Assembly (NCBI RefSeq): GCF_034351645.1
Contig: NZ_CP133782.1
Location: 5,610,001-5,674,000 of the forward strand
Origin: Pseudomonas sp. DC1.2
GTDB lineage: Bacteria > Pseudomonadota > Gammaproteobacteria > Pseudomonadales > Pseudomonadaceae
DNA length: 64,000 nucleotides
Direction: 5' to 3'
The notes under the pieces were generated by a model. The model had not been told where the DNA came from and made no database searches. It saw only the letters and a program-made list of their open reading frames with translations. Positions 42,299-60,557 of the stretch are shown here, in pieces (positions within the stretch are counted from its first letter, which is position 1; the number at the start of each line of letters is the position of its first letter). The position numbers and the translations under genes were made by a program.

Positions 42299-42349
42299 AT
42301 TCATGTACGCGTTCCATCCTCTCTCGTCTCAAACAGATTGGAGCAATTG

Positions 42350-43435: not shown

Positions 43436-43903
43436 ATGTCTGGCAACATGATTCCCTTTGGCGAGTGTGGCGGGCAGTTGCTCCAGGCTGACGAAGTCGC
43501 CAATGGACTGAGGTGCGTATGCCCTAAGTGCCATCGGGCTTTGGTGGCGGCGAATGAGGGCACTAAAGTCTTTCCCTATTTTCCCCAACAGCAGAGCGCC
43601 TCCGAGGGCGGTCATCCGGCATGCGTAACACGTAGAGCCATTGAGTTGATTCTTGCGGAACTGCCGGAGCTGGATCGAAAACGTTCTGGAGAACGCAGGC
43701 CTAGCGAACTGATGGAAACACCGCACTCACTCGTGTGCCGGTACAGCACGCGAGCGAGCGCCCACGGGCGTCACTCCTCGAACAGTGCCTTGGCGGGCAA
43801 ACGCCGACGCCTGAGGTACATCCACACCGCCATGATACTCAACGCACTTAACGGCAGGCCGTGGAACAGCACAATCACCTGCGCCGGGCTCCAGGCCAGA
43901 TAG
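43436..43903 (+). CDS. Small zinc-ribbon protein, probably a truncated remnant
   Basis: The frame of 155 codons starts at ATG 43436 with AAGGA upstream. Its first 70 residues have a zinc-ribbon look (RCVCPKCHRALVAANEGTKVFPYF, then HPACVTRRAIELI), recalling the N-terminal part of CoiA-like nuclease proteins. The last 45 codons overlap the 3' end of the converging MFS gene and read as low-complexity, so the original gene was probably longer and cut near 43740. The family assignment is tentative. Confidence 0.4.
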   Translation: MSGNMIPFGECGGQLLQADEVANGLRCVCPKCHRALVAANEGTKVFPYFPQQQSASEGGHPACVTRRAIELILAELPELDRKRSGERRPSELMETPHSLVCRYSTRASAHGRHSSNSALAGKRRRLRYIHTAMILNALNGRPWNSTITCAGLQAR

Positions 43904-45012
43904 AACGGCCCGACGATGAGCATTCCCACGCCGAAGCCGGTCATCTGGATCAGCGTCAATAAGCTGAACAGCGGCAAACGTAGCGCCTCAGGTTCACGCT
44001 GGGCACGCGATATCAAGGCCACTTCGGCCATTCCATCGCCCACGCCCGCCCAGACAATAAACACCAGCGCCAGCCACAACTGCGCCTGCTGGAAGGTCAG
44101 GATGAAGCCAGTCGACATCAGCGCGACTCCGACCATGAACAAGCGCTCCATGCCTTGAATGCCGCATCCTTTCAACAGTGCATTGGCCAAACGCGCCCCG
44201 GCAAACTTGCCGCATGCCCACACTGCCAATAAATAGCCCATGACCGTGTTCACGGTATCGGGGGCAATGAGCTGAGACAGCACCGGAAACCCGACGTTGT
44301 GTGCTGCACTGCCCAGGGTATCAAGCAGGCTGATGAGCAACATCGCCGCTAGCACAGGCGTACTGCGTAGCCCCTGCTTGAGTGCGTGCCACTCTCCCGA
44401 CAGCCCTTTGTGCGCCACGGGAGATACCGCATACAACGCCCGCAGCGGAACAATCAGGATGGCGGCCAGCAAGTAAGTCGCGATATTGGTTGCAAAGACG
44501 GCCTCAAATCCGCCTTCTGCGATCAACAATCCCGACAGCAGGCTGCCGAATATTGCTCCCGTGGCGGCCGCGGACGTCAGCCAGGCATTAGTGTTCACAC
44601 GCAGGCCGGGGGCAACCCAGGTAGGCAACTGGCTATTGAGGCCGATCGCAAAAAGGGAATTGCATAACCCGATGCCGAACGCGATGAAAGGCAGGATGCT
44701 CAGCTGGTGGGCCGGTGCCAGTAAGAGCAACGGAGTCAATAGCATAGCTCTGGAGAGATCCAGCCCGGCCAATGCGCCTCGTCCGGGAAAGTGCCTGAAA
44801 AAGCTGATCCCGAACAGGCTGGCGACAATGCCGCCCGCGACTCGACACGCCAGGAACACACTGACGAACACCACGCTTTGGCTTAGCCAATAGACGTAGG
44901 TCGATAAAGCCACCATGTTAAGAAAGGCACCAAAATCGGAAACGCCTCTGGCGAATACGATCAGGCGTCCGTTGCGGGCGGACCGGGGAAGCGCAAGGTC
45001 GTCATTGAGCAT
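43771..45012 (-). CDS. MFS transporter, probable product exporter
   Basis: A 413-residue major facilitator with about 12 hydrophobic segments, ending in a basic tail (YLRRRRLPAK). It has the layout of small-molecule exporters found at the end of biosynthetic operons. Start ATG 45012 overlaps the dioxygenase end by 11 bp; GTG 45021 is also in frame. It is the last gene of the minus-strand cluster, so I infer export of, or self-resistance to, the cluster product. Confidence 0.85.
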   Translation of the reverse strand: MLNDDLALPRSARNGRLIVFARGVSDFGAFLNMVALSTYVYWLSQSVVFVSVFLACRVAGGIVASLFGISFFRHFPGRGALAGLDLSRAMLLTPLLLLAPAHQLSILPFIAFGIGLCNSLFAIGLNSQLPTWVAPGLRVNTNAWLTSAAATGAIFGSLLSGLLIAEGGFEAVFATNIATYLLAAILIVPLRALYAVSPVAHKGLSGEWHALKQGLRSTPVLAAMLLISLLDTLGSAAHNVGFPVLSQLIAPDTVNTVMGYLLAVWACGKFAGARLANALLKGCGIQGMERLFMVGVALMSTGFILTFQQAQLWLALVFIVWAGVGDGMAEVALISRAQREPEALRLPLFSLLTLIQMTGFGVGMLIVGPFYLAWSPAQVIVLFHGLPLSALSIMAVWMYLRRRRLPAKALFEE

Positions 45013-45733
45013 GACCCGCACCCTCTACGTTAGCGGGCAGGCGTCGGAATCCGACAAGCAGCAGGTCGCGGCTGGCGGGCAGATCGCCGCTCAATGGGAG
45101 AACCAAGCCGGCGCGGTGGTAGACCTTGCTGTCGTTGATCGCGATGGTTTCCAGGAAATGCTCCATGGGCACGCTGAGCAGACATCTGTCAGCTTCCTGC
45201 GAGGCGTAGATCTCAGAGACCACAGGCACCGTATTGCACGCGTCGATGAAGTGCATGAACACCCAGTCAAGCCCATCCTGATGAATCCCCGAGGTTGTCG
45301 GGCTGCCGGTTGGTTTATCCGCCTTGACCCGAAACTGGTGGATATCAATGGCGTACATATGCTTGCCTAACTGCGGACCAATAGCAGCAATGTCGGTGGC
45401 CAGAAGCCGCTGCAAGAGCGGATGGGAGATAAAACCTTCCTCTGAATAACTCAGGGCATTCACCCCTTGGCGGTACTCAATTGGGTAAACGACCGAGGAG
45501 GCGTAATTGGCATCTCTGTTCATCTGCAAATGCCCGTTGGGCGCTAAGCGATAGCGCAGAATCCGCCGCTCGCGGTGGGTGTACTCTCTGAACGCCTCGT
45601 CCCGGACCAGGTTCGACCAGTAGGCCCGGAAGCTGTGTTCCTCCTCTTGCTCGATGTGCAGCAACTCGCGGAAGTGACGTCCATGCCAATAATGATGCTG
45701 GCTCAAGTGAGCCGAAATCTGTGAGCTATCCAT
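45002..45733 (-). CDS. 2-oxoglutarate/Fe(II) dioxygenase family protein
   Basis: A 243-residue member of the 2OG-Fe_Oxy_2 group, which includes free amino-acid hydroxylases such as isoleucine dioxygenase. Iron ligands appear as H151-x-D153 (GIHQDGLDW) and H206 (VYHRAG), with a likely 2OG-binding Arg at 222. Start ATG 45733 lies 5 bp beyond the ATP-grasp stop; the open frame runs further upstream but overlaps that gene. It probably hydroxylates an amino-acid building block of the cluster product. Confidence 0.85.
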   Translation of the reverse strand: MDSSQISAHLSQHHYWHGRHFRELLHIEQEEEHSFRAYWSNLVRDEAFREYTHRERRILRYRLAPNGHLQMNRDANYASSVVYPIEYRQGVNALSYSEEGFISHPLLQRLLATDIAAIGPQLGKHMYAIDIHQFRVKADKPTGSPTTSGIHQDGLDWVFMHFIDACNTVPVVSEIYASQEADRCLLSVPMEHFLETIAINDSKVYHRAGLVLPLSGDLPASRDLLLVGFRRLPANVEGAGHAQ

Positions 45734-45737
45734 AGCG

Positions 45738-47102
45738 CTATCCTGCGGAGGGGTCGATAACTGCGTTGAGGTTTTGCCGGACCGCATCATGCAGTGCACA
45801 GGCGTGGGCAACATCGTCGACTTTGGCCCAGCATTTGAGCAGGTAATGCTCTTCAATATCGGCGTCGAGATAGCCACCGGCTTCCTGCACGGCGTATTCC
45901 ACCACAGCCGGGTGATCGTCCAAGTACCCTAGCCCTTCAAAACCTTTGAAACAGCCACTGCTTTCGGGATAAACCGCCAGCATGGCGTAGCTTTGCGTTG
46001 CCGCACCGACTTTGCGTTGCACGGTATCAAGCAGCGTGTCGACTGCCGGATCACGCAACAGCAGGGAGACATACAGCTGATACGGATCGAAGCCTGCGAG
46101 ATCGCGCAAAGCGGCATTAACGTACAACCCACCCAATCGGGGGTTGATCTCAATGACCACAGGCCCCTGCTCCGTCATGCGAAATTCGAAATGCGCGAGC
46201 GCGTCAGTCAGGCCTAATGCCTGCAAGCAGGCAGCGGCGTAACTGCGGATCTGGTCACACTGCTGCGCCGTGAACGAAACAGGAGGCGTAATCAACAGAT
46301 TCTCCAACACGGTGCCGCTGCGCTCTGTCAGCAGTAGCTTTTCGTTGATCAGCACGGGATAAATTCGATTGCCCGCCGCCACACATTCCACCGTGCCTTC
46401 AACGCCCTCGATAAATCCCTCAAGCATGAGGCTTCGACCCGGAATGTACTCACGTGAAGTCCCGTCGTCGTTGGGCAAGGTATGGGCGCACCCGTAGAAA
46501 TCGGCACATGCGGCTTCACCGTGACGCGCGACAAACTGCACATAGTGATCTCGCAACTGCGCCCAGTTCGAACAACGCTTGATAAAAGCCGACGCGCCGC
46601 CAAACGCAGGCTTGGCAATCAGCGGGTAGCCCACCCGGGCGGCGCCCTCTTCCAGCTCTTTTTCATCATTGCACAGCGCAAAAGGAACTGAGCGCAACCC
46701 GTGCTTTTGCAGGGCGCGACGCATCAGGTACTTGTTGTTGCACGCGGCTATGGCCTCGGCCGACGCAGAAACCAGACCGAGCTTTTGGCACACCCTTGCG
46801 ACGATACAACCCACTTGCCCTTGGGCAGAAGCATGTCCCGCATGACAAAAGATGGCTCGCACGGTGTACCGATCCTGAAGCTCGTCGACCAGCTCTAAAA
46901 TAGTTTGCTCGCTCAGGGTTTCAAGCAAGAACACCTCGTCACTGTCCTGCTCCAACCGTTGCAGTTGGTTGCGCCCACAGACTCCTGCGATCAGGCACAG
47001 CAGCCCTTGCAAGCGAGCAGCGGCAAAGTGTGGTTCACGGTAGCGATAGCGCACAGAGGGGCCGTCGTCGATATCAATAAACAGAATAGCGTCTTGCTTC
47101 AT
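45738..47102 (-). CDS. ATP-grasp ligase B
   Basis: A 454-residue ATP-grasp enzyme of the kind that forms amide bonds between amino acids via acyl phosphates. The ATP-binding segments are YPLIAKPAFGGASAFI near residue 175 and the metal-binding FRMTEQGPVVIEINPRLGG near 310. The N-terminal 120 residues form the pre-ATP-grasp domain. It shares the fold but little obvious sequence with ATP-grasp A at 49680-50975, so two couplings are plausible. The gaps to its neighbours are 30 and 4 bp. Confidence 0.88.
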   Translation of the reverse strand: MKQDAILFIDIDDGPSVRYRYREPHFAAARLQGLLCLIAGVCGRNQLQRLEQDSDEVFLLETLSEQTILELVDELQDRYTVRAIFCHAGHASAQGQVGCIVARVCQKLGLVSASAEAIAACNNKYLMRRALQKHGLRSVPFALCNDEKELEEGAARVGYPLIAKPAFGGASAFIKRCSNWAQLRDHYVQFVARHGEAACADFYGCAHTLPNDDGTSREYIPGRSLMLEGFIEGVEGTVECVAAGNRIYPVLINEKLLLTERSGTVLENLLITPPVSFTAQQCDQIRSYAAACLQALGLTDALAHFEFRMTEQGPVVIEINPRLGGLYVNAALRDLAGFDPYQLYVSLLLRDPAVDTLLDTVQRKVGAATQSYAMLAVYPESSGCFKGFEGLGYLDDHPAVVEYAVQEAGGYLDADIEEHYLLKCWAKVDDVAHACALHDAVRQNLNAVIDPSAG

Positions 47103-47132
47103 CGTTGTTCACCACGTCTAGTCAAAGGCTGC

Positions 47133-48287
47133 TCATGCATCGTGCCAACTGCACCGATGACCGTTCCAACTCTGGAACGTGTAATAACGCTGACCATCGC
47201 GCATTTCAAAGCGGGGCAGCTCATCGGGCTTATCGAAATCCATGATGGGCACCGTGAATTTGCCTTGGGCATGGGGAAGCACGTATTCAGGCATGGCGAT
47301 ATTGGAAACGCGCCGTTTGAGGCATTTCATCAGCGCGATCGCGTGGCTGATAGACGCTTTGTATTCACTGGCACCGGGAGAAAACGGCATGAAGTGGTAT
47401 AGGTAATAGGGCTTGACGCCCATGCGGTAGAGATCGATGAATAGTGTGTGAAGCGTCTGCTCATCGTCGTTGACGCCGCGTAGCAACGGCATGTTCGAAA
47501 AGACGATCGGCACTACCGACTGAATACGTTTAACGGCACGTGCAAAGTCGTCACTCAATTCAAGCGGGTGGCAGACATGTAGGCCGAATGCATTGACCTT
47601 GTATTTTTCCAGCATCGCCACCAGCTCGTCGGTCACGCGAAACGGGTTGAAACTCAAGGCCCGCGAGTGGATACGAATCAGCAGGTCATCACTGATCGAG
47701 CGCAGCGCCGCCAGGTTTTCCTCCAGCTTGCGATCGGACAGCATTAACGGATCGCCACCGCTGAGAATGACTTCCTCAATGGCAGGCGTATTACGGATAT
47801 ATTCAAGGGAATCGAGAAAAGAGTTGGTATTGGCGTTGGGCTTCTCGGTCCCCACTTGCAGAGTCCGCAGCGCCTCGAAGCAGAACTGACAATAGGCGTT
47901 GCAGGTATTGGTCATGCGCAGGATGACGCGGTTATCGTATTTATGCTGGCAGATCGGTGTTTTCATTTCATGGTGCAACTCCCAGTTCTCAGAAATACCA
48001 TCGTAATCATCCTGGGCAAGTTCGTTCCAGTAGGGCACTACCTGCCGCCAAAGTGGATGTTCCAGCACACTGCCAGCGTTGCGCGACCGCATGATCAAAT
48101 CAATATAGTAGGGCGTGATCTGCAACTTGCGTCCTTGTAAGTTGTGCACGATATGGGCCGTCACGTCGTCGCCCCAACCGCCGCAGGCCTCACGCAGTGA
48201 GCGCTCATCGCGCACGGCGTTTTTCTGTTGCCAGCGCCAGTCGCTCCATTGGTTTTCAACATGGATAACCTGATTGATTGTCGTCAT
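47133..48287 (-). CDS. KamA-like radical SAM aminomutase
   Basis: A 384-residue protein of the lysine 2,3-aminomutase family. The radical SAM cluster motif C129-x3-C133-x2-C136 (CNAYCQFC) is present, then the SAM site EEVILSGGDPLMLSD. A likely PLP lysine is K343 in HAQGKFTVP, aligned with GGKIPV of characterised aminomutases. These enzymes make beta-amino acids; relatives act on lysine, glutamate or arginine, and I cannot tell which. Upstream is the 147-bp gap 48288-48434, the only sizeable gap inside the cluster, so it may start a second transcript. Confidence 0.88.
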   Translation of the reverse strand: MTTINQVIHVENQWSDWRWQQKNAVRDERSLREACGGWGDDVTAHIVHNLQGRKLQITPYYIDLIMRSRNAGSVLEHPLWRQVVPYWNELAQDDYDGISENWELHHEMKTPICQHKYDNRVILRMTNTCNAYCQFCFEALRTLQVGTEKPNANTNSFLDSLEYIRNTPAIEEVILSGGDPLMLSDRKLEENLAALRSISDDLLIRIHSRALSFNPFRVTDELVAMLEKYKVNAFGLHVCHPLELSDDFARAVKRIQSVVPIVFSNMPLLRGVNDDEQTLHTLFIDLYRMGVKPYYLYHFMPFSPGASEYKASISHAIALMKCLKRRVSNIAMPEYVLPHAQGKFTVPIMDFDKPDELPRFEMRDGQRYYTFQSWNGHRCSWHDA

Positions 48288-48434
48288 TGACCGAATGCCT
48301 CCCTCAGTAAATATTTACAACACGGTAGTTAATATCGCACTGATCAGAACGTGCGGGCGTGGCTAAAACCAATGAGTGAAACATCGACTCAATTGTTCTA
48401 TTTGAATAGTGGTCCGCCATTGGGGACCGAATAC
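48288..48434 (-). promoter_or_regulatory. Possible internal promoter region of the cluster
   Basis: This AT-rich 147-bp gap ahead of the aminomutase gene carries an inverted repeat TGAGT (48374-48378) / ACTCA (48388-48392) separated by nine bases. It may be an operator. No clear -35/-10 pair was fixed. Confidence 0.3.
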
Positions 48435-49652
48435 TTATGTCTGGCGTAAATCGCGCAAGGTAGGAATTTTTTCCCGCGCGCTGACCCAAAATGCCGCGTC
48501 GGGTTCAACCTGGATCGTCGCGACGCCGCGTCGCAATCCTTCCGCCAACGCCGGCATTGCCATCAGGGCGGATTCCATATCGGCACGCGCTGCTTGGGCG
48601 TCGGTAAAGTGGGTCAAATCACCCGTTACACACAGGTGATCTTTACCCGCATCGCCGCTGGTCAGTGTCAGCTGCAGAGCGAATGGCTGGCCGCAGTGCT
48701 GCCATATCGTTTCGCTCACCTGGGATAGGCTTAATAAATTACCGCAGAAGTTAAAACTTTTATCACTGCGCCCGTGCAACACCAAGGTGCCGACCCGCGG
48801 GTTAGAAGTGGGTAATAAAGTCGCCAGGTCTCCGGTGTCATAACGTAATACCGGAACCCGAGGTGCTTTCAAGTCGCTAAGGTACAACTTGCCTTGCTCA
48901 TCAACTTCCGCCAATACCCATTTACTCAAGAAATCATAATGTCCCGGCGGGTGCTCGGGAGTCGATACGCCTACCAATCCTACTTCGGTATTGCCATAAA
49001 TACCGTAAAACGCGGCGTTTGGCCAAACCGTACGGATATAGCGCTGCTTGGCCGCGGAGAAGGCCTCGCCAATATAGATAACCTTGCGAATATCCAGCTT
49101 CACATGCGCCTGCACCGCCCAGTGCGCGGCTTGAATAATACCGCCAGGTGTTGCCAACAAGGCCGATACGCCGGCGTCTCGGCATATCTGCAGACAGGTT
49201 TGAGGGCAATCCTGTGCGTCCAAACGACCAACCGGCAAAAGGGTGCACCCAATGGGTTCCAATAAACGCGAAAGCCCTTCATATAAACAACCAAACCCGC
49301 CAGGCACCAATAAATTGGCCACCACATCGCGGCTGGAAAATACCCGCTGCCCTAGAAAGCGGCGGATCTCCAGAGAATAAGCATCACGTAATTCGCCGAC
49401 GGCATAATCACTGGCAACCACTAAAGGAGAGGCCGTGGTACCTGATGAACTGATCAGATAGCACTGACGCAAACCACCTGCCTGTCGAAGTTTCTCCGAT
49501 CGCTCATGCAGATCGGCTTTTGAAGCCTGAGGATAAAGCCGGTCGAACTGCTCATAGTTCAGCACTCGCGGATAGCCCGCGTAACCGGCATCGTGATAGT
49601 GCTGAACCATTCGGCCGAACGACTGCGTATCAAAAAAAGAGTGATTGATCAT
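48435..49652 (-). CDS. Adenylate-forming enzyme B (PaaK-like)
   Basis: A 405-residue member of the phenylacetate-CoA-ligase branch of the ANL superfamily. The phosphate loop is ISSSGTTASPLVV, the adenine-site region is YGIYGNTEVG, and the hinge/ribose Asp region is VLRYDTGDLATL. It is a paralogue of the enzyme at 56545-57786 with the same length and layout. It probably activates an acyl or amino acid for loading onto ACP or CoA. Start ATG 49652; 27 bp follow the ATP-grasp stop. Confidence 0.86.
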   Translation of the reverse strand: MINHSFFDTQSFGRMVQHYHDAGYAGYPRVLNYEQFDRLYPQASKADLHERSEKLRQAGGLRQCYLISSSGTTASPLVVASDYAVGELRDAYSLEIRRFLGQRVFSSRDVVANLLVPGGFGCLYEGLSRLLEPIGCTLLPVGRLDAQDCPQTCLQICRDAGVSALLATPGGIIQAAHWAVQAHVKLDIRKVIYIGEAFSAAKQRYIRTVWPNAAFYGIYGNTEVGLVGVSTPEHPPGHYDFLSKWVLAEVDEQGKLYLSDLKAPRVPVLRYDTGDLATLLPTSNPRVGTLVLHGRSDKSFNFCGNLLSLSQVSETIWQHCGQPFALQLTLTSGDAGKDHLCVTGDLTHFTDAQAARADMESALMAMPALAEGLRRGVATIQVEPDAAFWVSAREKIPTLRDLRQT

Positions 49653-49679
49653 GCAAGCTGTCTTCCCTGCAGGGTCTTG

Positions 49680-50975
49680 CTAAAAATAGGCGCGGTACTC
49701 ATCCCTGAGAAACTGCCACGCGGTCGGCGTTAATGCCGCACCGTTCAAGACGGTCTCGGTCCATCGTTCAAATGCTGCCAGGTCGTCCCAAAGAACCGTT
49801 TCGTCTTGATGGGAAAACGCCGCATTCATTGATGACGAAAACAAATCGGTGGTGGTCTTGAAGCGCTCGCCCACTTCGACTGAAGCCTGAAGCCCGATGA
49901 AACTTTCGAGCGGTGCAAGCGCTTCGTCTGCGCCGTTGAATACACCCGGCGCCATACTGATGACGTCACTGATAATGCCGCGCCTGATCAGCCTGGCTGA
50001 ACCGACCTCGCCGCCCCCTGCAAAACTGGTGGCGTATAGTTGACCCAACAAATGCGGCTCATAACAATGTTCGAACAGCATCGGCGTAATGGTCCCGTGC
50101 AACCGCGCGCCGACTTCGATCATGACCGGCCCAGCCGGACTATCAAGCAACTCCATATGGATCGCGCCCGTATGAATACCCAACGCGCACGCGGCCTGTT
50201 GCGCGTAGGCGACCAGCGCACGAAGACGTTCGCAGTCCGGGTCCAGTAAAAAGGTAAACTTCTTCACGAAGGGGCAGCTATCAATTCCCAGTTCATCGCA
50301 CCGAATATAACGACAGACCGATGAAACAACGTACTTGCCCGCCTGCGCCACCATGTCGACAACGTACTCTTTGCCGGTGATGAATGGCTGCAGCACAAAG
50401 CAGTCATTATTGGACCATGTCGATGAAAAACCGCCCCAATCCGCGCCCAGAAAAGCCCGCTCCAGTTCAATACGGTTGCGGCAAAACACGACCCCTTCCC
50501 CTCCTGCGGAGGATTGCGGTTTGAATACACAGGGATAAGCCTCCCAACACGGGAGTAGCGAGAGGGCCGCCGAGAGTCCGTCCAGCACGCAAGTCGGTAT
50601 TGCGGCCAAACCGGCCTGTGCGAGCGCCCGGTGCATGGCATCTTTATGACGACGGAGCCCGGAGTGCGCCGGGTCATTGCCCGTCAGCCCGTGTCGCTGG
50701 CTCAGGCGCTCGGCAAGCGCAACGCCGTTTTCGCTGCCGGCCAGGATAATATCGAACGGCAGTTCCTCCGGCCCCGGCACCTGCTCGGCCGAGATGAAGA
50801 TGCCGTGATAAAGCTCGGCGTTGAACTCACCTTTCTTTTTCTCGCTCAATGATGGCATCCGGCTGACTTTATCCATCTCGATGACGGCATAACAGTCGAC
50901 ACCTTGTGCCTTCAAATACCCGACCAACAGGTTCGCATTGGAGACGGGGTTGGTTATCAGACAGCGCTTGGTCAT
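49680..50975 (-). CDS. ATP-grasp ligase A
   Basis: A 431-residue ATP-grasp protein. N-terminal Rossmann-like part (KRCLITNPVSNANLLVGYLK), ATP lid YPCVFKPQSSAGGEGVVFCR and metal site AIHMELLDSPAGPVMIEVGARLHG. Such proteins in biosynthetic clusters ligate amino acids. Start ATG 50975 is 5 bp from the end of the NAT remnant. If the IS in the NAT gene is polar, expression of this gene and those downstream could be reduced. Confidence 0.86.
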   Translation of the reverse strand: MTKRCLITNPVSNANLLVGYLKAQGVDCYAVIEMDKVSRMPSLSEKKKGEFNAELYHGIFISAEQVPGPEELPFDIILAGSENGVALAERLSQRHGLTGNDPAHSGLRRHKDAMHRALAQAGLAAIPTCVLDGLSAALSLLPCWEAYPCVFKPQSSAGGEGVVFCRNRIELERAFLGADWGGFSSTWSNNDCFVLQPFITGKEYVVDMVAQAGKYVVSSVCRYIRCDELGIDSCPFVKKFTFLLDPDCERLRALVAYAQQAACALGIHTGAIHMELLDSPAGPVMIEVGARLHGTITPMLFEHCYEPHLLGQLYATSFAGGGEVGSARLIRRGIISDVISMAPGVFNGADEALAPLESFIGLQASVEVGERFKTTTDLFSSSMNAAFSHQDETVLWDDLAAFERWTETVLNGAALTPTAWQFLRDEYRAYF

Positions 50976-52539: not shown

Positions 52540-53156
52540 ATACACAGTCGTTTGCCTATCCCTTATGTTAAGGGGGAAACGGTGTCCTGTCTTTCAGGGG
52601 GCTCGTCCACCAGGACTCACCGCGCAGGTACTCCACCAACCACTCCCGTGTGACCAGCCGTTTGACACGGTAACGATGACAGCCCTGCACTTGCGTCACC
52701 TGATCGTCACGTTCATCCAGTGAAAGCGGCCTTATCGGACCACGCAGGCCAAACCCGACATCACACAGCCAGCGCCGTCCCTCCACATCGACCAACAGCG
52801 CCATATGGGTGGACAGCTCCCGGCATACGCCATTCTGAAAGGTCTTGGCCAACGTGCGTCGGACCTGGAACCCAAGGCTGAGCAGTGCTTGAGCAAAAAT
52901 GCCATTCATCTGTGTGCAGCCGCCGCCCCGCTGTTCGTGGACGATTTTCTGAGCTACATCGTCCAGCAAGAAAGGCACCTGAGCATCCAGGAAGCCATCC
53001 GCCATATCGAAGGGAATATGGGCGATGTGCGCCTCATGCAACCGGGCTAGGCAGGCAAAATCCGCCCCGACGGCATTCGGCCCGCCCAATCGCTGAAAGT
53101 ATCCGGCCAACCATGGCGGGCTTACCGACTGCACAGCGGGGCTGACTTTGAAGGTC

Positions 53157-53879
53157 TCACCCCACATTTTCGCCATTCCCTACACGCAATACAGTGCCCA
53201 GAGTGGACAGTTGTCGAGTGGCCAGCAAACACACGATTTGTGCAACTTCATCCGCTGTCATGACGCGCCTTGCAGGTATCGACTTCAGGATCTCTCTGGC
53301 CTGCTCACCGGCGAACGTCTGAAACATGTCCGTGTCCACGAAGCCCGGCGATACACAGTTGACGCGGACATCGAAGCGCGCAAGTTCAACTGACAGGCCC
53401 AGGCTCAAGCGCTCTATCGCCGCTTTAGCGCAGCCATAGGCCGTGTTGCCCAACTTGATCTTTTGCGCGGCCACCGAGCCGATATTAATGATATTGCCGT
53501 GGCGCGCCTTCGCCATGAGCGGCGCGAACACTTCACAAAAATTCAGGGTGCCGCCAAAGTTGTTGGCCATCACCTGTGCAAACGAGGACGGCTCCTGACT
53601 CAGAAACAGCCCGTCACGTGTAATGCCTGCGTTATTGACCAATACCGAGGGCAGAGGATAGTCGATGAGTTGCGCCTGGAAGCGCTCGACCTGGCCCCGA
53701 TCGCTACCATCAACGCGTGCGGTGATGACGCGTGCGCCGAACTCGCCAGACAGTCGGTCAGCGGCGGCCTCATCGTTTTGATATGTGGCGAAAACGGTGA
53801 AGTCCTGCGCGATCAACTTGGCGACGATCGCACGGCCTATTCCCCGCGTTCCCCCGGTAACGATAGCGATATCAGTCAT
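53157..53879 (-). CDS. 3-oxoacyl-ACP reductase (FabG-like SDR)
   Basis: A 240-residue short-chain dehydrogenase: cofactor loop TGGTRGIG, NNAGI, and catalytic N107, S135 (INIGSVA), Y148 and K152 (YGCAK). It reduces beta-ketoacyl-ACP in chain building. Start ATG 53879 overlaps the dehydratase stop by 8 bp, and its end overlaps the NAT gene. It is a cluster-dedicated copy rather than the housekeeping FabG. Confidence 0.9.
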   Translation of the reverse strand: MTDIAIVTGGTRGIGRAIVAKLIAQDFTVFATYQNDEAAADRLSGEFGARVITARVDGSDRGQVERFQAQLIDYPLPSVLVNNAGITRDGLFLSQEPSSFAQVMANNFGGTLNFCEVFAPLMAKARHGNIINIGSVAAQKIKLGNTAYGCAKAAIERLSLGLSVELARFDVRVNCVSPGFVDTDMFQTFAGEQAREILKSIPARRVMTADEVAQIVCLLATRQLSTLGTVLRVGNGENVG

Positions 53880-54213
53880 ACATGACGCTCCCTCGGCAAT
53901 GTATAGAATGTGAGGTTTTCAGGATAAAACCGATCTCTTTAGCCTCTGGAAGATCAAGCCCTGAAAACTGCAACTGCAAACAGGCGCCCGGCGTTATCGG
54001 CTTGATGAAAACCACACGCTTGACCCGTACCGCACTCTGCGACAGTAACTGTCTACAGCATGCCAGCACGAAGCCGACCGTGAACGCCCCTGGAACAATC
54101 GGATAGCCCGGAAAATGCTCATCAAAAATCGGCGCAACGGCATCCACTTCAACATGCACCGTAGTGTTTGAGTTGATCAATTCGAGGGCAGTATTGAAAA
54201 CCTCATAGCGCAC
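53872..54213 (-). CDS. FabZ-like hotdog dehydratase with altered active site
   Basis: A 113-residue hotdog protein with the motif HFPGYPIVPGAF (H33). In FabZ the catalytic Glu follows this motif (PGVLIVEA), but here the equivalent position is Gly (PGAFTVGF). It could be a variant dehydratase of the kind seen in type II polyene systems, or non-catalytic. The start is GTG 54213, with AGGAGA upstream, overlapping the end of the membrane-protein gene by 11 bp. Confidence 0.78.
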   Translation of the reverse strand: MRYEVFNTALELINSNTTVHVEVDAVAPIFDEHFPGYPIVPGAFTVGFVLACCRQLLSQSAVRVKRVVFIKPITPGACLQLQFSGLDLPEAKEIGFILKTSHSIHCRGSVMYD

Positions 54214-54751
54214 GGTTTCGCTCTCCTTGAGCCAAGTAAACTTCCGGGTACTTCTGGGTAAAAACAACTGCACACAGAATGGTGAAGTAAGACATCAGCA
54301 GATAAATCGGCCAGTCGTCCAAATCAATCAAACTTGCCAAGCCAAACCCAAAGTTAAGCGTGAATACCGCGTTCCACACCAACGTAATTTTTTTATTGAT
54401 ATGAATGAACGGCGGCGTATTCCAGAATTCCCGGGGTGTTTCCAACCTCGCATACTGCAACGTAAAGGGTTTACCGACGCAGTAGGACACCCACCCTGTA
54501 ATAGCCAACAAGCCATAAATCAAAGGCTTGGTAAATGATAGACTGAAAAAACTGGGTTGAACATAAGAGACGCCGGCGATCAAAACAAAACCACACGCGA
54601 CACTCCAGTCAATGACGAACTTATTTTTCAAGCTTTTATAACAAAGCGCCACCAGCACCAACAATGACAATAAAGCAGCTTCAACATAATTCCCGGTGCG
54701 CCACTCGAGAAAGTACGGAAACAGCAAGGGTGGAACAAGCAGATTAATCAT
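54203..54751 (-). CDS. Small multi-span membrane protein, unknown
   Basis: About 182 residues with five to six hydrophobic segments and no recognised family. Start ATG 54751 is a guess among GTG 54754, ATG 54751 and TTG 54769. AT-rich compared with neighbours (see 54290-54780), hinting at separate origin. It is embedded in the cluster, with its end overlapping the dehydratase start, so it is probably co-translated. Confidence 0.65.
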   Translation of the reverse strand: MINLLVPPLLFPYFLEWRTGNYVEAALLSLLVLVALCYKSLKNKFVIDWSVACGFVLIAGVSYVQPSFFSLSFTKPLIYGLLAITGWVSYCVGKPFTLQYARLETPREFWNTPPFIHINKKITLVWNAVFTLNFGFGLASLIDLDDWPIYLLMSYFTILCAVVFTQKYPEVYLAQGERNRAL

Positions 54752-54781
54752 CACGAAGTCATCCCACAACAGTAGAACGCA

Positions 54782-55171
54782 TTAAGTGTCGGCACGCTGC
54801 TCATTCATGGGCCGCAGGGCCATGACCGTAACTGAGCACAACAGATCATTATGAGCCGCTGAGACGGCCGATGAATAAATCTGCACAGTTCCGCCCTGCT
54901 GCTCCCTGGAAACCTGTCCGAACAAATAACCGATTTGCCGAATGTCGGCCGTACTCAGTTGACGCAGGGATACCGGTAGAAAGCGCTCACTTGCGGCGCC
55001 TGCATCCACCGTCGCACGCACGCACCGCACCGCGAATTGATGACAAAGTTCTACAGTGACAAGGGTGGCGTCAAAGCGTGACAGAAACGTCGCCAGCAAA
55101 TCCGGATCAAGCCGAACGCGAAAAAGCGGTCCGTGCCTTTCCAACTCTGGACACAGATCAAGGTAATTCAT
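54782..55171 (-). CDS. Small cytosolic protein, possible hotdog thioesterase
   Basis: 129 residues from ATG 55171, with AGGG upstream. The alternation of beta-rich stretches (ATLVTVELCHQFAVRCVRATVD; GTVQIYSSAVSAAHNDLLCSVTVMAL) would fit a hotdog fold such as a thioesterase, the one expected activity otherwise missing from the cluster. No catalytic motif confirms this. Confidence 0.55.
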   Translation of the reverse strand: MNYLDLCPELERHGPLFRVRLDPDLLATFLSRFDATLVTVELCHQFAVRCVRATVDAGAASERFLPVSLRQLSTADIRQIGYLFGQVSREQQGGTVQIYSSAVSAAHNDLLCSVTVMALRPMNEQRADT

Positions 55172-55228
55172 GCCAAGTACCCTCATCGCCTCATCAGGCT
55201 CTTTATTATTGAAAACTCAGGGACTCGT

Positions 55229-55756
55229 TCATTTCTTGTTTGCACAGGCAACGTCAACTTCGCTGTGACGGGAAAATGCATTCAGGATCGACAACATTTT
55301 CCACGCCCGGCCGCACAACAATCCAATGGTTAAACCCGAGGCAGCGCCTATCAGCAGTCGCATTGGCAAGGAGCCGGCAAATAGGGGGTCTGTCGCCTGT
55401 TGATAGCCGATAAAGTATTTAATCGCGAAAAAAAACATCGATAGCACCAGTAACTTGAATGACCCCGGTACCGAGATAGAATGACGAGCCTCACCCTCGG
55501 TAATACCGTGATAGTCAAACCACCGCATAGCGATCATCCCCCCCACGAACACGCCTGCTATCCAACTGCCCATCGACACCCAGGGTTGAGTGGCATAGTC
55601 CATGGCCATCAAGGACCAGGCTACGAATATCGCCGGGCTGAGCAACAGTGAGCGACGGGTTTCATTACTTTTGAAGCACGCCATTACACCGTAATAAAGC
55701 AGCAGAAAAAAAACGGCGTAAACCCACAGCGGTGTTTCGCGCAATATGACTAACAT
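55229..55756 (-). CDS. DUF6622-like membrane protein
   Basis: A 175-residue membrane protein with about five hydrophobic segments, N-terminus MLVILRETPLWVYAVFFLLL and a basic start to the loops. It resembles the uncharacterised DUF6622 family. Start ATG 55756 has GAGGG upstream, 8 bp after the nicotianamine-synthase-like stop. Role in the cluster unknown. Confidence 0.7.
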   Translation of the reverse strand: MLVILRETPLWVYAVFFLLLYYGVMACFKSNETRRSLLLSPAIFVAWSLMAMDYATQPWVSMGSWIAGVFVGGMIAMRWFDYHGITEGEARHSISVPGSFKLLVLSMFFFAIKYFIGYQQATDPLFAGSLPMRLLIGAASGLTIGLLCGRAWKMLSILNAFSRHSEVDVACANKK

Positions 55757-55764
55757 GGTATCCC

Positions 55765-56544
55765 TCAATCGTAGGATCGAACGCCGTAGATGGCACTGCT
55801 GATCGGGCAGCCTGAAAGGTGAGTGAGCAACTCCAACTGTTGTTGGCTGGGTAAACCTACCGGGCGATAAATAAACTGTTTCCAACCCTCGGTATCGCGC
55901 AACACAATTCGAAGTTGCGGCTTGCGGCAGGTATCAAGAATGCGCTGCAGGACGTTGGATCGTCCGGAAACCGTCATGGACAGCACAACGACATCGTATT
56001 CACCGTAATCAAAATCCGCGCCGTCAGCCTCGACCAGACTTAAGCGCTCACGGGGTATATCCAGTGCGCTGAATACTACGTCCAGCCCTTGCCGCGCTCG
56101 CACAATCGCCGTGGGGTCAATGTCAATTCCCGTGACGACAAACTCGGTTTTCTGCACATACAGCAAAATACTCAGCGGCATGGCGCCCACACCCACTTGG
56201 CACAGTTTTCCATGGTGGGAGTCGAGGCCAGTGAGTTCGCTGCTGACCATACGTTGATAAATGCGATAGAAAAACCGGCTGAGTGGACTGCTCTCAGTCA
56301 ATAACGTGTTCCATTGATGACTCAGCGCCGACTCAAAAAGCTGCTCTATTTCCAGCACTTTGCGCTGGCAGTCTTCAATGCGGTATCGTTCAGCACGCTC
56401 TGAGTGTTCGTAAGGGGCGATACGTTGATAGCTGTTCAGCAAGATCAACAAATCCGAATACGCATGAAAAAGCTCATCCAGCCACCCCGCTTCTGTTGGG
56501 ATGGCCAGCAACCTTTCGATACGCCGTCCTGGCTCAGCATCCAT
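55765..56544 (-). CDS. Nicotianamine-synthase-like aminobutyryltransferase
   Basis: A 259-residue protein with the layout of bacterial nicotianamine synthase / CntL proteins: an N-terminal helical bundle, then a Rossmann SAM site VGVGAMPLSILLYV, the acidic strand VVTGIDIDPTAIVRA, VVVLSMTV, and LRIVLRDTEGWKQFIYRPV. In this family SAM donates an aminobutyrate group rather than methyl, to an amine such as histidine in staphylopine. There is no opine dehydrogenase here, so a metallophore of that class is not indicated. Start ATG 56544 directly follows the adenylation enzyme's stop. Divergence means simple methyl transfer cannot be excluded. Confidence 0.72.
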   Translation of the reverse strand: MDAEPGRRIERLLAIPTEAGWLDELFHAYSDLLILLNSYQRIAPYEHSERAERYRIEDCQRKVLEIEQLFESALSHQWNTLLTESSPLSRFFYRIYQRMVSSELTGLDSHHGKLCQVGVGAMPLSILLYVQKTEFVVTGIDIDPTAIVRARQGLDVVFSALDIPRERLSLVEADGADFDYGEYDVVVLSMTVSGRSNVLQRILDTCRKPQLRIVLRDTEGWKQFIYRPVGLPSQQQLELLTHLSGCPISSAIYGVRSYD

Positions 56545-57786
56545 TCAGGCAACTCCAACGCGCGGGCGCTCATCACGCAGTGCTGGCAGTTTTTGTCGTG
56601 CGTTGAACTTAAATCGCTCGCGTCCCACGATGGATACCTCGGCGACGCCACGCCGCAGTGCTTCGCCAAATTTTGGAATCTGACTCAGCGCCGACTCCAC
56701 TCGCGCCCGTAAGCCTTCATCCACTTCAATGTCCGGCAGGTCCAGAGCCACCTCCACGCGGTCCCGACCCTGTTCGGCCGGTTTGAGCGTGACCTGGCAC
56801 CACGTTGCATCCACGTCTGCAACCGCAAGCTGTTGACGGACCTGGTCCAGGCGGATTTTATGTCCTCCCAGACTGAACTCCTCGCCCACCCTCTCGCCAA
56901 TGGTCAAGTAGAACTCAGGGCTGGCGGGTTCAGAAAATAGCGCGCCATAGTCGCCTATTCTGTAGCGAATAAGCGGCACGACCGGCGCCCTCAGATCGGT
57001 CACCAATAACTCCCCTTGATCGCTGATTTCGACGAAAAACCAATCGGAGAGCAGCAGATGCTGGCCGGGGCCCATCTGTGGCGTGTTGATCGCGGCGAAC
57101 CCCAACTCCGTTGCGCCATAAATGCTGTAAAAATGCGCGTCGGGCCATTGTTCACGGACAAACGTGCGCTTGGAGGCGTGAAAGGCTTCGCCAACAAACA
57201 CCACTTTGCGAACCGGCAGCGACACGCCCGCCCGCAATGCCGCTTGCGCAACCTGCACAATGCCACTGGGAGATCCCACCAGCACATCGACGTGAAAGCG
57301 TTCCAGCAGATCGAGCAAGAGCGCATCGTTGGCCAAGGTATCCGGGCGGCCCACGGGGAGAATGGTCACCCCGATGCTTTCGAGCAAACGGCACATGCCC
57401 TCATAACTGTTTCCCAGGCCACCTGCTGTCAGCAGATTGGCAACGATGTCATCGGCACTGAAGACATGCTTGGCCATCGCGACACGCACTTGATAGGGAT
57501 AGCTGTGTTCTGTGACGCCCTGCAAAAATTTATTCGCAAGAATGACAGGGCCGCTTGTCGTACCGGAGGTCGACACCACATAACAACCCTGCATTTTTCC
57601 CGCACCAAGCAACTGCCGTCCCGAGGCCGACAGTGCACTTTTATCCATGACGGGATAGGCGTCGACAAACCTCTGGTAATCCTCGACTGGCTCAAGCGCG
57701 CCAGGGTAACCATCACGCAGGTAACCCATGATCATTTGATTAAACTTATCAACTGGAAAATCTGTCCGGCGTTGGATTGTTTGCAT
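56545..57786 (-). CDS. Adenylate-forming enzyme A (PaaK-like)
   Basis: A 413-residue ANL-type enzyme: phosphate loop VSTSGTTSGPVILA, YSIYGATELGFA, and LIRYRIGDYGALF. It is a paralogue of enzyme B at 48435-49652. It may activate the starter acid for the ACP. It sits between the KS (14-bp gap) and the nicotianamine-synthase-like gene (no gap). The substrate is unpredictable from sequence. Confidence 0.86.
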   Translation of the reverse strand: MQTIQRRTDFPVDKFNQMIMGYLRDGYPGALEPVEDYQRFVDAYPVMDKSALSASGRQLLGAGKMQGCYVVSTSGTTSGPVILANKFLQGVTEHSYPYQVRVAMAKHVFSADDIVANLLTAGGLGNSYEGMCRLLESIGVTILPVGRPDTLANDALLLDLLERFHVDVLVGSPSGIVQVAQAALRAGVSLPVRKVVFVGEAFHASKRTFVREQWPDAHFYSIYGATELGFAAINTPQMGPGQHLLLSDWFFVEISDQGELLVTDLRAPVVPLIRYRIGDYGALFSEPASPEFYLTIGERVGEEFSLGGHKIRLDQVRQQLAVADVDATWCQVTLKPAEQGRDRVEVALDLPDIEVDEGLRARVESALSQIPKFGEALRRGVAEVSIVGRERFKFNARQKLPALRDERPRVGVA

Positions 57787-57800
57787 CCTGCAACCCCTTA

Positions 57801-59063
57801 TTAGGCGTCAATTCGGCGAAAGATCATTGAGGCTGCCAGTCCACCCATCCCAAACGAGTTCTTGAGACAGTATTCGATGTCGGCGCTCTGCGTCTGACCT
57901 ATTATGTTGGCCTTGCACTGCGGGTCCGGGGTCTCAAGGTTGCGCGTCCCCGGAATGAAGCCTTCCCTCAAACCAATCAGGGTATTGAGTGTTTCCATGG
58001 CCCCTGCCGCGGCGATCATATGCCCGTGCAGTGATTTATTGGCGGTGACCGGCACTCGCTCCGATAACACTGAGCAAATAGCAGCTGACTCGTGCAGATC
58101 ATTCAACACGGTTGAGGTGCCATGGGCATTGACCAACCCTATTTGACTGGGGTTGAGCCCGGCACTGGCCAGTGCCCGAATCATTGAAAGTTTCATCTCC
58201 CGGGATTCAGGATCGGGCTTCACAATATGGCTGGCGTTCATGCTCGCCCCATACCCGACGATTTCCATCAAAGGCACCGCGCCTCTCCTGAGCGCATGGG
58301 TGTAACTCTCCAATAAGAACAGCACCGCGCCCTCAGCCGGCACATAACCTGAACGGCGCGTATCAAAGGGACGCGACAAACCATCAAACGGTAATGAAGC
58401 GTCGGTGCAAATCACATCGACCGATTCGAGGCCGATATAGTGCTCGGGCGTTACTTTGGCGCTGGCACCGCCGACGATAGCGGCATCCACTCGCCCGCGA
58501 GCAACCTGTTCAAATCCCGTACCAATTGCCTGCAGTGAAGCCGCGCACAGCCCCAGGTGCACCATGCTCGGGCCATGGAATGGAATCTGCGCATGGACCT
58601 GACGCAATACCTGAGTTGAATCCAGGCGGGCAAAATCACTGATGCGATAGTGCTTTTCCATCATCTCGGCCATATTGGTAAATGCCTTGTCAGCGCCCCG
58701 CTGCAAGTCATAAACAAAATCAACGGTTTGATGGATATCCGGAACAGGTTCATCAACGCCCAGGAAACATCCAATACGCTGCGGCGAGAAATGACTCAGG
58801 TCCACACCGGGCCATGCCATTAATCCCTTAACCGCATTATTGATATACAGCTCGTCCCAGGAGCGACTGCGTTTTGATGTGGACACGCGCATGTTGCCAA
58901 CCTCTGGCACGCCCGCGAAATGGCTTTTGAACGAAGCCGTATCGAACTTCTGTATTTCACGAATGCCGGATGTACCGTCACGCAATGCCGCAGTGACCGA
59001 ATCATAGGTATTGCCCAGAGGCGTACAACAGCCCAAGGCGGTGATGACCACGCGTTCTCTCAT
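57801..59063 (-). CDS. Beta-ketoacyl-ACP synthase (KS), catalytically complete
   Basis: 420 residues. The condensing triad is C173 (HLGLCAASLQA), H314 (VNAHGTST) and H348 (LHGHMIAAAG), with K343. The Cys context differs from the usual DTACSS. It probably elongates the acyl chain with the chain-length-factor-like partner. Start ATG 59063 overlaps that gene's stop (ATGA). The longer frame from 59126 overlaps the neighbour and lacks support. Confidence 0.9.
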   Translation of the reverse strand: MRERVVITALGCCTPLGNTYDSVTAALRDGTSGIREIQKFDTASFKSHFAGVPEVGNMRVSTSKRSRSWDELYINNAVKGLMAWPGVDLSHFSPQRIGCFLGVDEPVPDIHQTVDFVYDLQRGADKAFTNMAEMMEKHYRISDFARLDSTQVLRQVHAQIPFHGPSMVHLGLCAASLQAIGTGFEQVARGRVDAAIVGGASAKVTPEHYIGLESVDVICTDASLPFDGLSRPFDTRRSGYVPAEGAVLFLLESYTHALRRGAVPLMEIVGYGASMNASHIVKPDPESREMKLSMIRALASAGLNPSQIGLVNAHGTSTVLNDLHESAAICSVLSERVPVTANKSLHGHMIAAAGAMETLNTLIGLREGFIPGTRNLETPDPQCKANIIGQTQSADIEYCLKNSFGMGGLAASMIFRRIDA

Positions 59064-60202
59064 GACGCGTCTCCCGATACGGGCCGGTCGATAGGCAGAT
59101 GTTGCAACTTTTTGATTACGGCGCACGCACAGCCGATGCCGATCCCCATGCCATTGACCAGTAGTGTGCGGCCAACTTCAACGCTCTTGTCGGCCAACGC
59201 ACAGGCAAGGTCCACAAGGCCACTGGTACTTCCCGCATAACCTGTATAGGGTTTGTAACGACGAATATCGACGTTCGGGAGGGCCTTGAACACCGCTGCA
59301 TTCTCGACCTGACGCAGGTTAGGCGCGCCGTTGTCATACATCACAACCACTGGTTTTTCGCCGATCACTGCAGCAGGCAAGCCGCTGAGCAAGGCCTCCC
59401 AATCCGCCTGCTGTGAATGGATTTTCCCGTCGAAACGACTATGGACAGAGACAATCTGCGCAAGCGCGACATGACCGGAGCGTTGCAACAGGGCGGCATT
59501 TTCCAGCATCAATGCAACCGCGCCATGGGTAACGTTGACTTTATCGGTTTGCGACCGGTGCGGGTCCGACTCAATCAGACCCATCTTGCGGAACGCTTCA
59601 AAGTTATCAACTTTGATCATATCCCCGACTCCACACAATAAAGCGCCTCCCTGCGCCTCGTCCTCAAGTTTGAATAGCGCATGCTCCAATAGGGACAGCC
59701 CGCCCAGTGACATACTGCGCAAGGGATAACCCCCTCCGATAAATCCGAAGAACTTGGCAATGTGGTACAGGTTATTAGTCGGCAACTTTCGAAATAACCG
59801 AAGTGGATGAACGCTGCCGGCAACACGTCCTAACACCGCGTGTACATCAACTGCCGTCAGTTCCGGGCGCTTGATACGGTATTCGTAAAGAATTTCGTAA
59901 AAGTCCCGGACGGTTTCAGCGGTGGTATAGACATTAATAAGCGCACGCGCCTCTTCGCTAAAGGCAAGCTGTTGTTGCGCCATTGCACATGCGGCATCCG
60001 CGACTGTAAGGCTGTATATTGCTGCGTCGGATAATATTGCCCTGTCTTCACGGGCAATACCTTTTGCCATCTGCGCAGACAAAACCGCAGCCCCTTTGGA
60101 CGCTGCTTCAGCGGTTACAAAAGCGGCCTCTTGCCGAGCGATATCGGCCAGGTCTAGCCCGGCCTGACGTACGGCGACTCCAGTCAAGTAAACACTAGCC
60201 AT
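59060..60202 (-). CDS. KS-like protein lacking the active-site Cys (chain-length factor type)
   Basis: A 380-residue thiolase-fold protein similar in outline to ketosynthases. The nucleophile-elbow segment reads SMSLGGLSLLEHAL with Gly in place of Cys, and no AHGT motif is visible. This is the pattern of chain-length factors, which pair with an active KS in type II polyketide systems. Start ATG 60202 overlaps the ACP stop by 8 bp. It forms an ACP-CLF-KS block with its neighbours. Confidence 0.82.
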   Translation of the reverse strand: MASVYLTGVAVRQAGLDLADIARQEAAFVTAEAASKGAAVLSAQMAKGIAREDRAILSDAAIYSLTVADAACAMAQQQLAFSEEARALINVYTTAETVRDFYEILYEYRIKRPELTAVDVHAVLGRVAGSVHPLRLFRKLPTNNLYHIAKFFGFIGGGYPLRSMSLGGLSLLEHALFKLEDEAQGGALLCGVGDMIKVDNFEAFRKMGLIESDPHRSQTDKVNVTHGAVALMLENAALLQRSGHVALAQIVSVHSRFDGKIHSQQADWEALLSGLPAAVIGEKPVVVMYDNGAPNLRQVENAAVFKALPNVDIRRYKPYTGYAGSTSGLVDLACALADKSVEVGRTLLVNGMGIGIGCACAVIKKLQHLPIDRPVSGDAS

Positions 60203-60557
60203 GAGCGAGTGCCTCTAGACGCCGGGAACAGAACTCCGGTGTCCAGAAACGACCAATCTTATTCGGCTCAACCACATCGCTATCCGCAACTTGCAGGATG
60301 TCGCGAGCCATCTCCCGCCCGCGGACGGTCCACTGACTGTCCACGCACAATGCTGGATCCGCCATCATTTTATGGAACGGCCACAAGTACTCTGGCTCCA
60401 CATCGGGGTTGATCTGCGACTTGACTTCAAAGCAGAAGTCGATGAAATCAATCGACGTAAATCCGATTTGATCAAATGACTGGTCACTGGGAATTGACTC
60501 TGGACCATCCAGAAAAAGAATGTCTGCTGCGATCTCTTTTATTTTGACCAAGTACAT
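60195..60557 (-). CDS. Acyl carrier protein with C-terminal extension
   Basis: 120 residues from ATG 60557, with GAAGGGG upstream; GTG 60566 is also in frame. The phosphopantetheine site is the Ser of GFTSIDFIDF (S35), a variant of GxDSL. The first 80 residues match an ACP; the remaining 40 (about 80-120, QWTVRGREMARDILQ and on) extend beyond a standard ACP. It heads the cluster. No phosphopantetheinyl transferase is in the window, so a genomic one would be needed. Confidence 0.82.
   Translation of the reverse strand: MYLVKIKEIAADILFLDGPESIPSDQSFDQIGFTSIDFIDFCFEVKSQINPDVEPEYLWPFHKMMADPALCVDSQWTVRGREMARDILQVADSDVVEPNKIGRFWTPEFCSRRLEALAHG

Follow-up and report, generated by a model that had tools for sequence, protein, structure and literature searches.

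The window analysed here, a 64,000-nt stretch of Pseudomonas sp. DC1.2 (NZ_CP133782.1, positions 5,610,001-5,674,000; the genome is a single contig of 5.82 Mb), encodes a conserved, rare and real biosynthetic system that forms one unit. It occupies a run of 17 tightly packed genes at 43771-60566 (window numbering; a split NAT gene is counted once and the insertion sequence, IS, within it is left out). The genes all lie on the minus strand, in the order acyl carrier protein (ACP), CLF, ketosynthase (KS), A1, NAS, TM1, HYP, TM2, dehydratase (DH), ketoreductase (KR), NAT, ATPg1, A2, KamA-like, ATPg2, 2-oxoglutarate (2OG) dioxygenase and MFS exporter. The best explanation, to which we give about an even chance, is a stand-alone reducing type II polyketide synthase (PKS) pathway that ends in an amide. 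An initial annotation had described about 17 tightly packed minus-strand genes; family scores and reading frames confirm the proteins that it named, and TM1, TM2 and HYP, which went unnamed there, are added here.

CLF has no match in the curated families that we searched and was for that reason chosen as the tag for finding relatives. Among 298 Pseudomonas genomes it was found in Pseudomonas sp. DC1.2, in two copies, and in two others. Across the phylum three of 398 genomes matched: Pseudomonas sp. DC1.2, a genome that we call G363, and another, G307, with a scrap of 49 positions. Searches in the family (1/198), order (1/292) and genus (1/25) of G363 each returned G363 itself. In the class, six of 369 genomes matched, one being Pseudomonas sp. 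DC1.2 and the other five giving partial and weak matches (in frames of 336-432 amino acids, with coverage of the model between one third and slightly more than half); these five gammaproteobacterial matches and the G307 scrap were left out of the member count. CLF relatives were absent from the plasmids searched and, by two short patterns, from viral contigs. KS matched 1275 plasmid records, all below 60% identity, with fabF the usual name among the ten listed. A scan of named genomes with two short peptide patterns, which detects only what bears them, gave one locus each in P. palleroniana LMG 23076, Pseudomonas sp. Irchel s3h17, P. frederiksbergensis 39A2 and the alphaproteobacterium Roseobacter cerasinus (Roseobacteraceae), to which the cluster proteins of G363 are closest (KS 79%, CLF 72%). 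The total is seven loci in six genomes.

An 11-gene core (core genes 1 to 11: ACP, CLF, KS, A1, TM1, HYP, TM2, DH, KR, NAT and ATPg1) keeps its order and strand in all seven loci, so the grouping goes beyond chance; HYP of G363 was a partial search match, and its frame was then read. Three loci in Pseudomonas, the second copy in Pseudomonas sp. DC1.2 among them, consist of the core only. Those of the window, P. palleroniana, R. cerasinus and G363 also contain NAS, between A1 and TM1, and A2, after ATPg1; every locus has both genes or neither. In whole-genome searches NAS was found in four of the six genomes, inside the clusters, and these are exactly the genomes whose cluster has A2. In the tree, A2 from the window groups with A2 from R. 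cerasinus and from G363 (support 90/98, under the program's own star mark), and by this grouping the module of NAS and A2 is probably old.

The tail genes KamA-like, ATPg2, 2OG dioxygenase and MFS exporter are at the cluster in two loci only, those of the window and P. palleroniana; at the Irchel s3h17 locus the sequence covered only 2.7 kb past ATPg1. Whole-genome searches found the KamA-like gene in two of the six genomes and relatives of the 2OG dioxygenase as weak matches elsewhere, outside the clusters, in R. cerasinus, P. frederiksbergensis and Pseudomonas sp. DC1.2. In R. cerasinus and in G363 the cluster is instead preceded by genes for a LytTR regulator and for a phosphopantetheinyl transferase (the latter called by sight in R. 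cerasinus and by Pfam in G363); a CrtI/CrtD-like FAD oxidoreductase follows it (pieces L013 8392-9231, L021 5744-7265, L023 2986-4620 and L021 18505-19998). This oxidoreductase suggests a desaturation step replacing the Pseudomonas tail genes.

The presence of the tail genes in two of seven loci would suit two unrelated operons lying side by side, an arrangement that we consider very improbable. NAT and ATPg1 accompany the acyl half in the core of all seven loci, which speaks against unrelated halves, and A2 and NAS, although at separate places in the cluster, are gained or lost together. A chance cluster or two operons was rejected on the gene order in the seven loci, and the initial reading of one hybrid biosynthetic cluster stands.

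The acyl half begins with the ACP gene (60195-60566, likely start ATG at 60557; PF00550 24.1 bits, cut-off 20.8), which has the motif GF[ST]SIDF with its Ser in all six aligned loci. The KS gene (57801-59126, likely start near 59069) scores 84.6 bits to PF00109 and 91.6 bits to PF02801, with a cut-off of 20.8 for each, and scores highest, among the NCBIfam models listed, with FabF (276.8 bits, cut-off 493.75). Its partner CLF (59060-60202) has no Pfam or NCBIfam match. The Cys-His-His triad of KS is intact in the six aligned rows and that of CLF is lost in all six, at the low identity of that alignment; the predicted CLF model shows a ketosynthase fold. We therefore describe CLF as a probable triad-less ketosynthase fold, less surely than we assign the fold of HYP (below). 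KR, a FabG-like ketoreductase (53157-53879; PF00106 148.9 bits), has the S-Y-K pattern in six of six rows. An intact KS triad and KR pattern beside a lost CLF triad supports a reducing PKS, and the cluster has its own ACP, KR and DH, the last a FabZ/ApeI-like hotdog protein (53872-54273) that scores 18.6 bits to PF07977, under the cut-off of 23, yet matches ApeI (4.9e-09).

A1, a PaaK-like adenylate-forming enzyme (56545-57786; PF00501 36.2 bits, cut-off 29.9), is the proposed starter loader. Its nearest solved structures are phenylacetate-CoA ligase (2.3e-06) and AjiA1 (3.5e-04). ApeH of a related cluster charges its ACP with 4-hydroxybenzoate, and no CoA intermediate is involved (PMC8253772); by analogy we propose that A1 loads an acid directly on the ACP.

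Outside the actinobacteria, most known type II polyketide systems of the reducing kind are, to our knowledge, those of aryl polyene (APE) pigments. We compared hidden Markov models (HMMs) of the cluster families with the 18 APE proteins of E. coli CFT073. The matches were KS to ApeR (8.2e-49) and ApeO (5.8e-41), KR to ApeQ (6e-36), DH to ApeI (the value above; hhalign probability 85.9%) and ACP to ApeF (1.2e-06), with weaker ones of A1 to ApeH (0.0026) and TM2 to ApeG (0.013). For HYP, CLF, NAS, TM1, A2 and ATPg1 nothing better than 0.2 was found among the 18 proteins. Identity of TM2 with ApeG was rejected as not shown by sequence, the hhalign probability being 1.9%. The cluster resembles APE clusters in its stand-alone KS, CLF, ACP and KR, two hotdog proteins and an enzyme for acyl-ACP loading. 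It differs in having one KS where APE clusters have two, and in having NAT, an ATP-grasp and, in the window, NAS and the KamA-like gene. Genes for anchoring and Lol-type functions (the ApeD, ApeJ, ApeL and ApeN kinds) are absent among the 17, so this is not an APE cluster, though it is like one in its reducing type II PKS.

The same comparison bears on a lipid or pigment pathway of the APE sort, in which the acyl chain would be attached to a membrane anchor, TM1 and TM2 would be assembly proteins and the amino-acid genes would make a head group. Both membrane proteins are present in all seven loci: TM1 (55229-55759) belongs to DUF6622 (PF20327 30.8 bits, cut-off 27), and TM2 (54203-54751; VC0807 family 16.6 bits, under the cut-off of 65) has ApeG as its best, weak match. 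DH, KR and ACP resemble the APE set, and an RND pump travels with the cluster. We nevertheless consider such a pathway unlikely. Measured against the APE list, no lysophospholipid acyltransferase, glycosyltransferase, LolA-like or LolB-like gene is among the 17, NAT and ATP-grasp point to an amide, and an MFS pump is present.

DH and HYP may form a split-site dehydratase that shares one active site, like ApeI:ApeP. The HFPxxP His of DH is kept in six of six rows (P. frederiksbergensis is not among them). The DH residue at what we take to be the FabZ acid position varies: the four Pseudomonas rows all show Gly, R. cerasinus carries Ala and G363 carries Glu. HYP (54782-55186), a protein of 134 amino acids unnamed by Pfam and NCBIfam, has a predicted structure with the hotdog fold (pLDDT 84.1), and its Glu46-x-x-x-Gln50 is invariant in seven of seven rows. 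In the E. coli APE cluster, ApeP lacks an HFP motif and has ELMAQ, which resembles the HYP motif; ApeI carries the His as well as the Asp. The solved ApeI:P heterocomplex was the fifth Foldseek hit for HYP; a viral fold library gave nothing useful.

Several results weigh against the pathway as proposed or against parts of it. Among the NCBIfam matches listed, KS lies under every curated cut-off, and it is nearer to ApeR than to the elongating ApeO. The CLF model is of low confidence, and the identification of CLF with ApeC by sequence was rejected as not shown (HMM 0.62, hhalign probability 0.8%), as was that of HYP with ApeP (none listed by HMM, hhalign probability 0.4%). A1 is only weakly ApeH-like (hhalign probability 83% beside the HMM value above), and a single ACP was found for two adenylation enzymes. 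The Glu at the acid position of the G363 DH means that a split site is not universal. HYP had no Foldseek hit at E 0.001 or better and is as near to hotdog thioesterases as to FabZ, with the thioesterases scoring equal or better; a role as hotdog thioesterase is a possible alternative to that of DH partner.

The main rival to chain extension concerns the KS and its partner. In cispentacin biosynthesis a KS and the motif-less AmcG (CYF) condense once and close a ring, in a set that also comprises an ACP, an adenylation enzyme and a hotdog protein that decarboxylates (PMC10698177); ring closure by KS-CYF is proposed for coronafacic acid as well. By this account KS and CLF would act like AmcF-AmcG: A1 would load a keto-diacid such as 2-oxoglutarate, one condensation and ring closure would follow, and the hotdog protein would decarboxylate the product to a cyclopentane acid for coupling to amino acids. 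The ACP, hotdog protein, KS, motif-less KS partner and adenylation enzyme of the cluster parallel amcB, E, F, G and H, AmcG is likewise without known motifs and AmcE retains the FabZ His (PMC10698177). CLF of the window, too, is without a family match. However, KS scores 155 bits against the AmcF model (cut-off 325), below the controls ApeO (166.5) and ApeR (181.2), and therefore shows no special kinship with AmcF; ApeC, a known CLF, also lacks an NCBIfam match, so a missing family says little; and a dedicated KR in seven of seven loci fits cycles of reduction. No AmcG-named family came up in the family search with CLF, in a comparison that did not include AmcG, AmcE and AmcH themselves. The cluster differs from that of cispentacin in having KR, HYP and NAT and in lacking, among its 17 genes, a class-III aminotransferase of the AmcC kind. 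We regard ring closure as rather unlikely. The initial annotation, which had KS and CLF make the chain, is weakened to the extent that the partner may close a ring instead of setting length.

We predict that the reducing PKS pathway is completed by amide formation. NAT is a PF00797 family member located in a PKS cluster. Its 5' piece (52610-53176; 115.8 bits) contains the motifs RGGGCTQMNG, STHM and CDVGFG, which we take to be those of the Cys-His-Asp triad. In the window the gene is broken by an IS3-family element (about 51286-52609, minus strand; TnpA 52153-52545, TnpB 51323-52375), into which the open frame of the 5' piece continues to 52568; the 3' piece follows at 50981-51285 (PF00797 29.4 bits, cut-off 22.8). 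The flanks of the element overlap by five bases when compared with the intact P. palleroniana gene. Strains with an intact NAT, which the initial annotation had proposed to look for, exist: NAT is one uninterrupted open frame in the other six loci, the second copy of Pseudomonas sp. DC1.2 included. The second-copy protein is most similar among solved structures to NATs (best 4.7e-32) and also matches the amide synthase GdmF (6e-09).

NAT homologues such as RifF attach polyketide chains to amines (PMC11213898). Where the chain comes from a type II PKS, this role is proposed for ColC2 and, on the basis of a knockout, for AsuC2 (PMC11213898). The cluster resembles those of asukamycin and colabomycin (manumycin type) in that a type II PKS chain would be handed to an amine by a NAT-family enzyme. 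Those clusters are from Streptomyces, and the asukamycin amine is 3-amino-4-hydroxybenzoate. Compared by description only, the present cluster differs in that no precursor gene of the 3-amino-4-hydroxybenzoate type was recognised among the 17; it has ATP-grasps, NAS and the KamA-like gene instead. The table of MIBiG NAT genes in PMC11213898 has no Pseudomonas or Roseobacter entry.

ATPg1 (49680-50975; PF13535 43.2 bits) is an ATP-grasp similar to a solved L-amino acid ligase (6.2e-33). ATPg2 (45738-47102; PF02655 47.3 bits) is a second such protein with weaker matches to L-amino acid ligases (1.9e-08) and BacD (1.4e-07). A2, the second PaaK-like adenylation enzyme (48435-49652), scores 23.7 bits to PF00501, under the cut-off of 29.9.

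NAS (55765-56544) is a proposed aminobutyryl transferase or cyclase that uses S-adenosylmethionine (SAM). It passes the cut-off of PF03059 (27.1) with 32.9 bits in the window and 32.0 in R. cerasinus, and among solved structures CntL is closest to it in sequence (chains 7e-05). A Glu and a Tyr before the SAM-site motif are invariant in three of three rows, in an alignment from which MtNAS is absent. The catalytic residues of the nicotianamine synthase MtNAS are Glu81 and Tyr107, and enzymes of this kind move the aminobutyryl part of SAM; there are also SAM enzymes that convert this part to azetidine-2-carboxylate by cyclisation (PMC10491745). With the family cut-off passed and the Glu, the Tyr and the SAM-site motif conserved, the aminobutyryl step from SAM that the initial annotation had suggested as possible is plausible.

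NAS resembles nicotianamine synthase and the staphylopine synthase CntL in its Pfam family and SAM-site region. It differs from CntL in scoring far below the cut-off of the CntL model (24.2 bits against 350), in lying in a PKS cluster and in having no opine dehydrogenase beside it among the 17 genes. The NAS/CntL family membership together with the export genes would fit an opine-like or amino-acid metallophore pathway with NAS at its centre and a side chain supplied by the KS half. This is quite improbable: NAS is lacking in three of seven loci and two of six genomes, no metal-uptake family is found among the 17 genes, nor is an opine dehydrogenase, and the KS core is present in all loci.

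The KamA-like radical SAM enzyme (47133-48287) has a visible CxxxCxxC motif and a solved relative, 2a5h (1.2e-44). Like lysine and arginine 2,3-aminomutases it passes the KamA family cut-off (TIGR00238 202.9 bits, cut-off 199.2), and it fails those of the specific aminomutases listed, including NCBIfam AblA (205.2 bits, cut-off 525.4). In the alignment with 2a5h it has Pro opposite both D293 and D330, which we take to be the Asp pair by which lysine 2,3-aminomutase recognises its substrate, and this sets it apart from that enzyme. The Lys nearest to K337, presumably the pyridoxal phosphate lysine, is two columns off and leaves that position unaligned. For these reasons the substrate is probably not lysine and beta-lysine an unlikely product. 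A beta-lysine-making lysine 2,3-aminomutase was considered and left as a weak reading on that alignment. The 2OG-Fe dioxygenase (45002-45877; PF10014 108.5 bits) belongs to an amino-acid hydroxylase family and matches 9dqp (1.6e-11) and L-isoleucine-4-hydroxylase (7.5e-08). The initial annotation's beta-amino-acid or hydroxylated units are weakened as a general feature: KamA-like, ATPg2, 2OG dioxygenase and the MFS exporter (43771-45021; PF07690 42.4 bits, cut-off 33.4) lie outside the conserved system, and beta-lysine is an improbable unit.

From the gene functions we propose the following order of steps. A1 would adenylate a carboxylic acid, which is loaded on the ACP, and KS with its catalytically dead KS-fold partner CLF would extend the chain with malonyl units. 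KR would reduce it, and DH, supplying the catalytic His, would together with HYP, supplying the acid, dehydrate it to an unsaturated chain. The NAT-family amide synthase may then transfer the chain onto an amine, and ATPg1 may couple an amino acid to another acid or amine; the core genes would then yield an amide of the N-acyl amino-acid or dipeptide-like kind. In the larger versions, a SAM-derived amino acid unit would be made by NAS and activated by A2. In the window and P. palleroniana, amino acids could be hydroxylated by the 2OG dioxygenase, rearranged by the KamA-like enzyme and coupled by ATPg2. The MFS exporter and the co-travelling RND pump would export the product or protect the cell. 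In Pseudomonas sp. DC1.2 the amide transfer would be interrupted by the IS in NAT.

A further reading, possible but doubtful, is an undescribed pathway class in Pseudomonas, Roseobacter and G363. Here half-dead enzyme pairs (KS/CLF and DH/HYP) would build the chain, and a SAM-derived aminobutyryl or azetidine-type amino acid cap, made by the NAS relative and activated by A2, would be joined to it by NAT and the amino-acid ligases. The known parts (reducing type II PKS, NAT amide synthase, amino-acid ligases and a NAS relative) are combined in a way that we did not find described. Among the open-access papers listed in our searches, no title described this gene set, with MIBiG covered only via the one published table of NAT genes, and this agrees with the initial statement that no characterised cluster has the combination. 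Since this compact and rare Gram-negative reducing type II PKS has amino-acid chemistry as its last stage, it points to products that differ from the known ones, and there is a fair chance of a new class of product. The split-site dehydratase, the KS partner outside the curated families searched and the NAS relative in a polyketide assembly are testable features. The natural series of 11 core genes, the core with NAS and A2, and the full 17 genes suits finding the role of each added enzyme.

The cluster appears to be mobile. A stretch at 43663-65257 (window numbering, beyond the window's end) is common to the window and P. palleroniana and 97% alike. It includes the RND pump gene (60831-63893, minus strand; NF007133 2100.1 bits, cut-off 1763) and its membrane-fusion partner (HlyD_D23), which extends beyond the window's right end. 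A second place in the Pseudomonas sp. DC1.2 genome is 81% alike over the end of the RND gene, and the gene in the window looks like an extra one. The flanks of the shared stretch differ: TnsD/TniQ genes and glmS adjoin it here, and in P. palleroniana its neighbours are, by sight, chemotaxis-like genes. Just past the left end of the cluster, a plus-strand frame of 382 amino acids (42185-43333) has no Pfam match.

To the right of the window, at about 65714-74265 (L052 2215-10766), a TnsD/TniQ gene that passes both Pfam cut-offs lies beside glmS, as does a weaker TniQ-like gene. Two neighbours of TnsD/TniQ match neither Pfam nor NCBIfam and are TnsA/TnsB-like by sight only. The interval from the Tns/TniQ genes to the cluster showed no TnsC-like frame. 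The arrangement looks like a Tn7-like insertion at glmS adjoining the cluster. The IS3-family element in NAT appears to have spread recently in this genome, as 17 of the 19 TnpB matches print 100% identity.

The core-only second copy of Pseudomonas sp. DC1.2 lies at about 1743060-1751846 of the contig (G000:C1; L003 15061-19901, L024 and L004 1-3946). By sight, its neighbours are flagellar/chemotaxis genes on one side and fliK-like/ccm-like genes on the other, and it is flanked by a 448-base direct repeat (98%) that holds an FlhB-C-like frame. Judged by these surroundings, both copies in Pseudomonas sp. DC1.2 look like islands, and the cluster seems to move between genomes. The core cluster of P. 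frederiksbergensis 39A2 adjoins a frame that is of integrase type by sight (L006 3508-3990, G053:C44).

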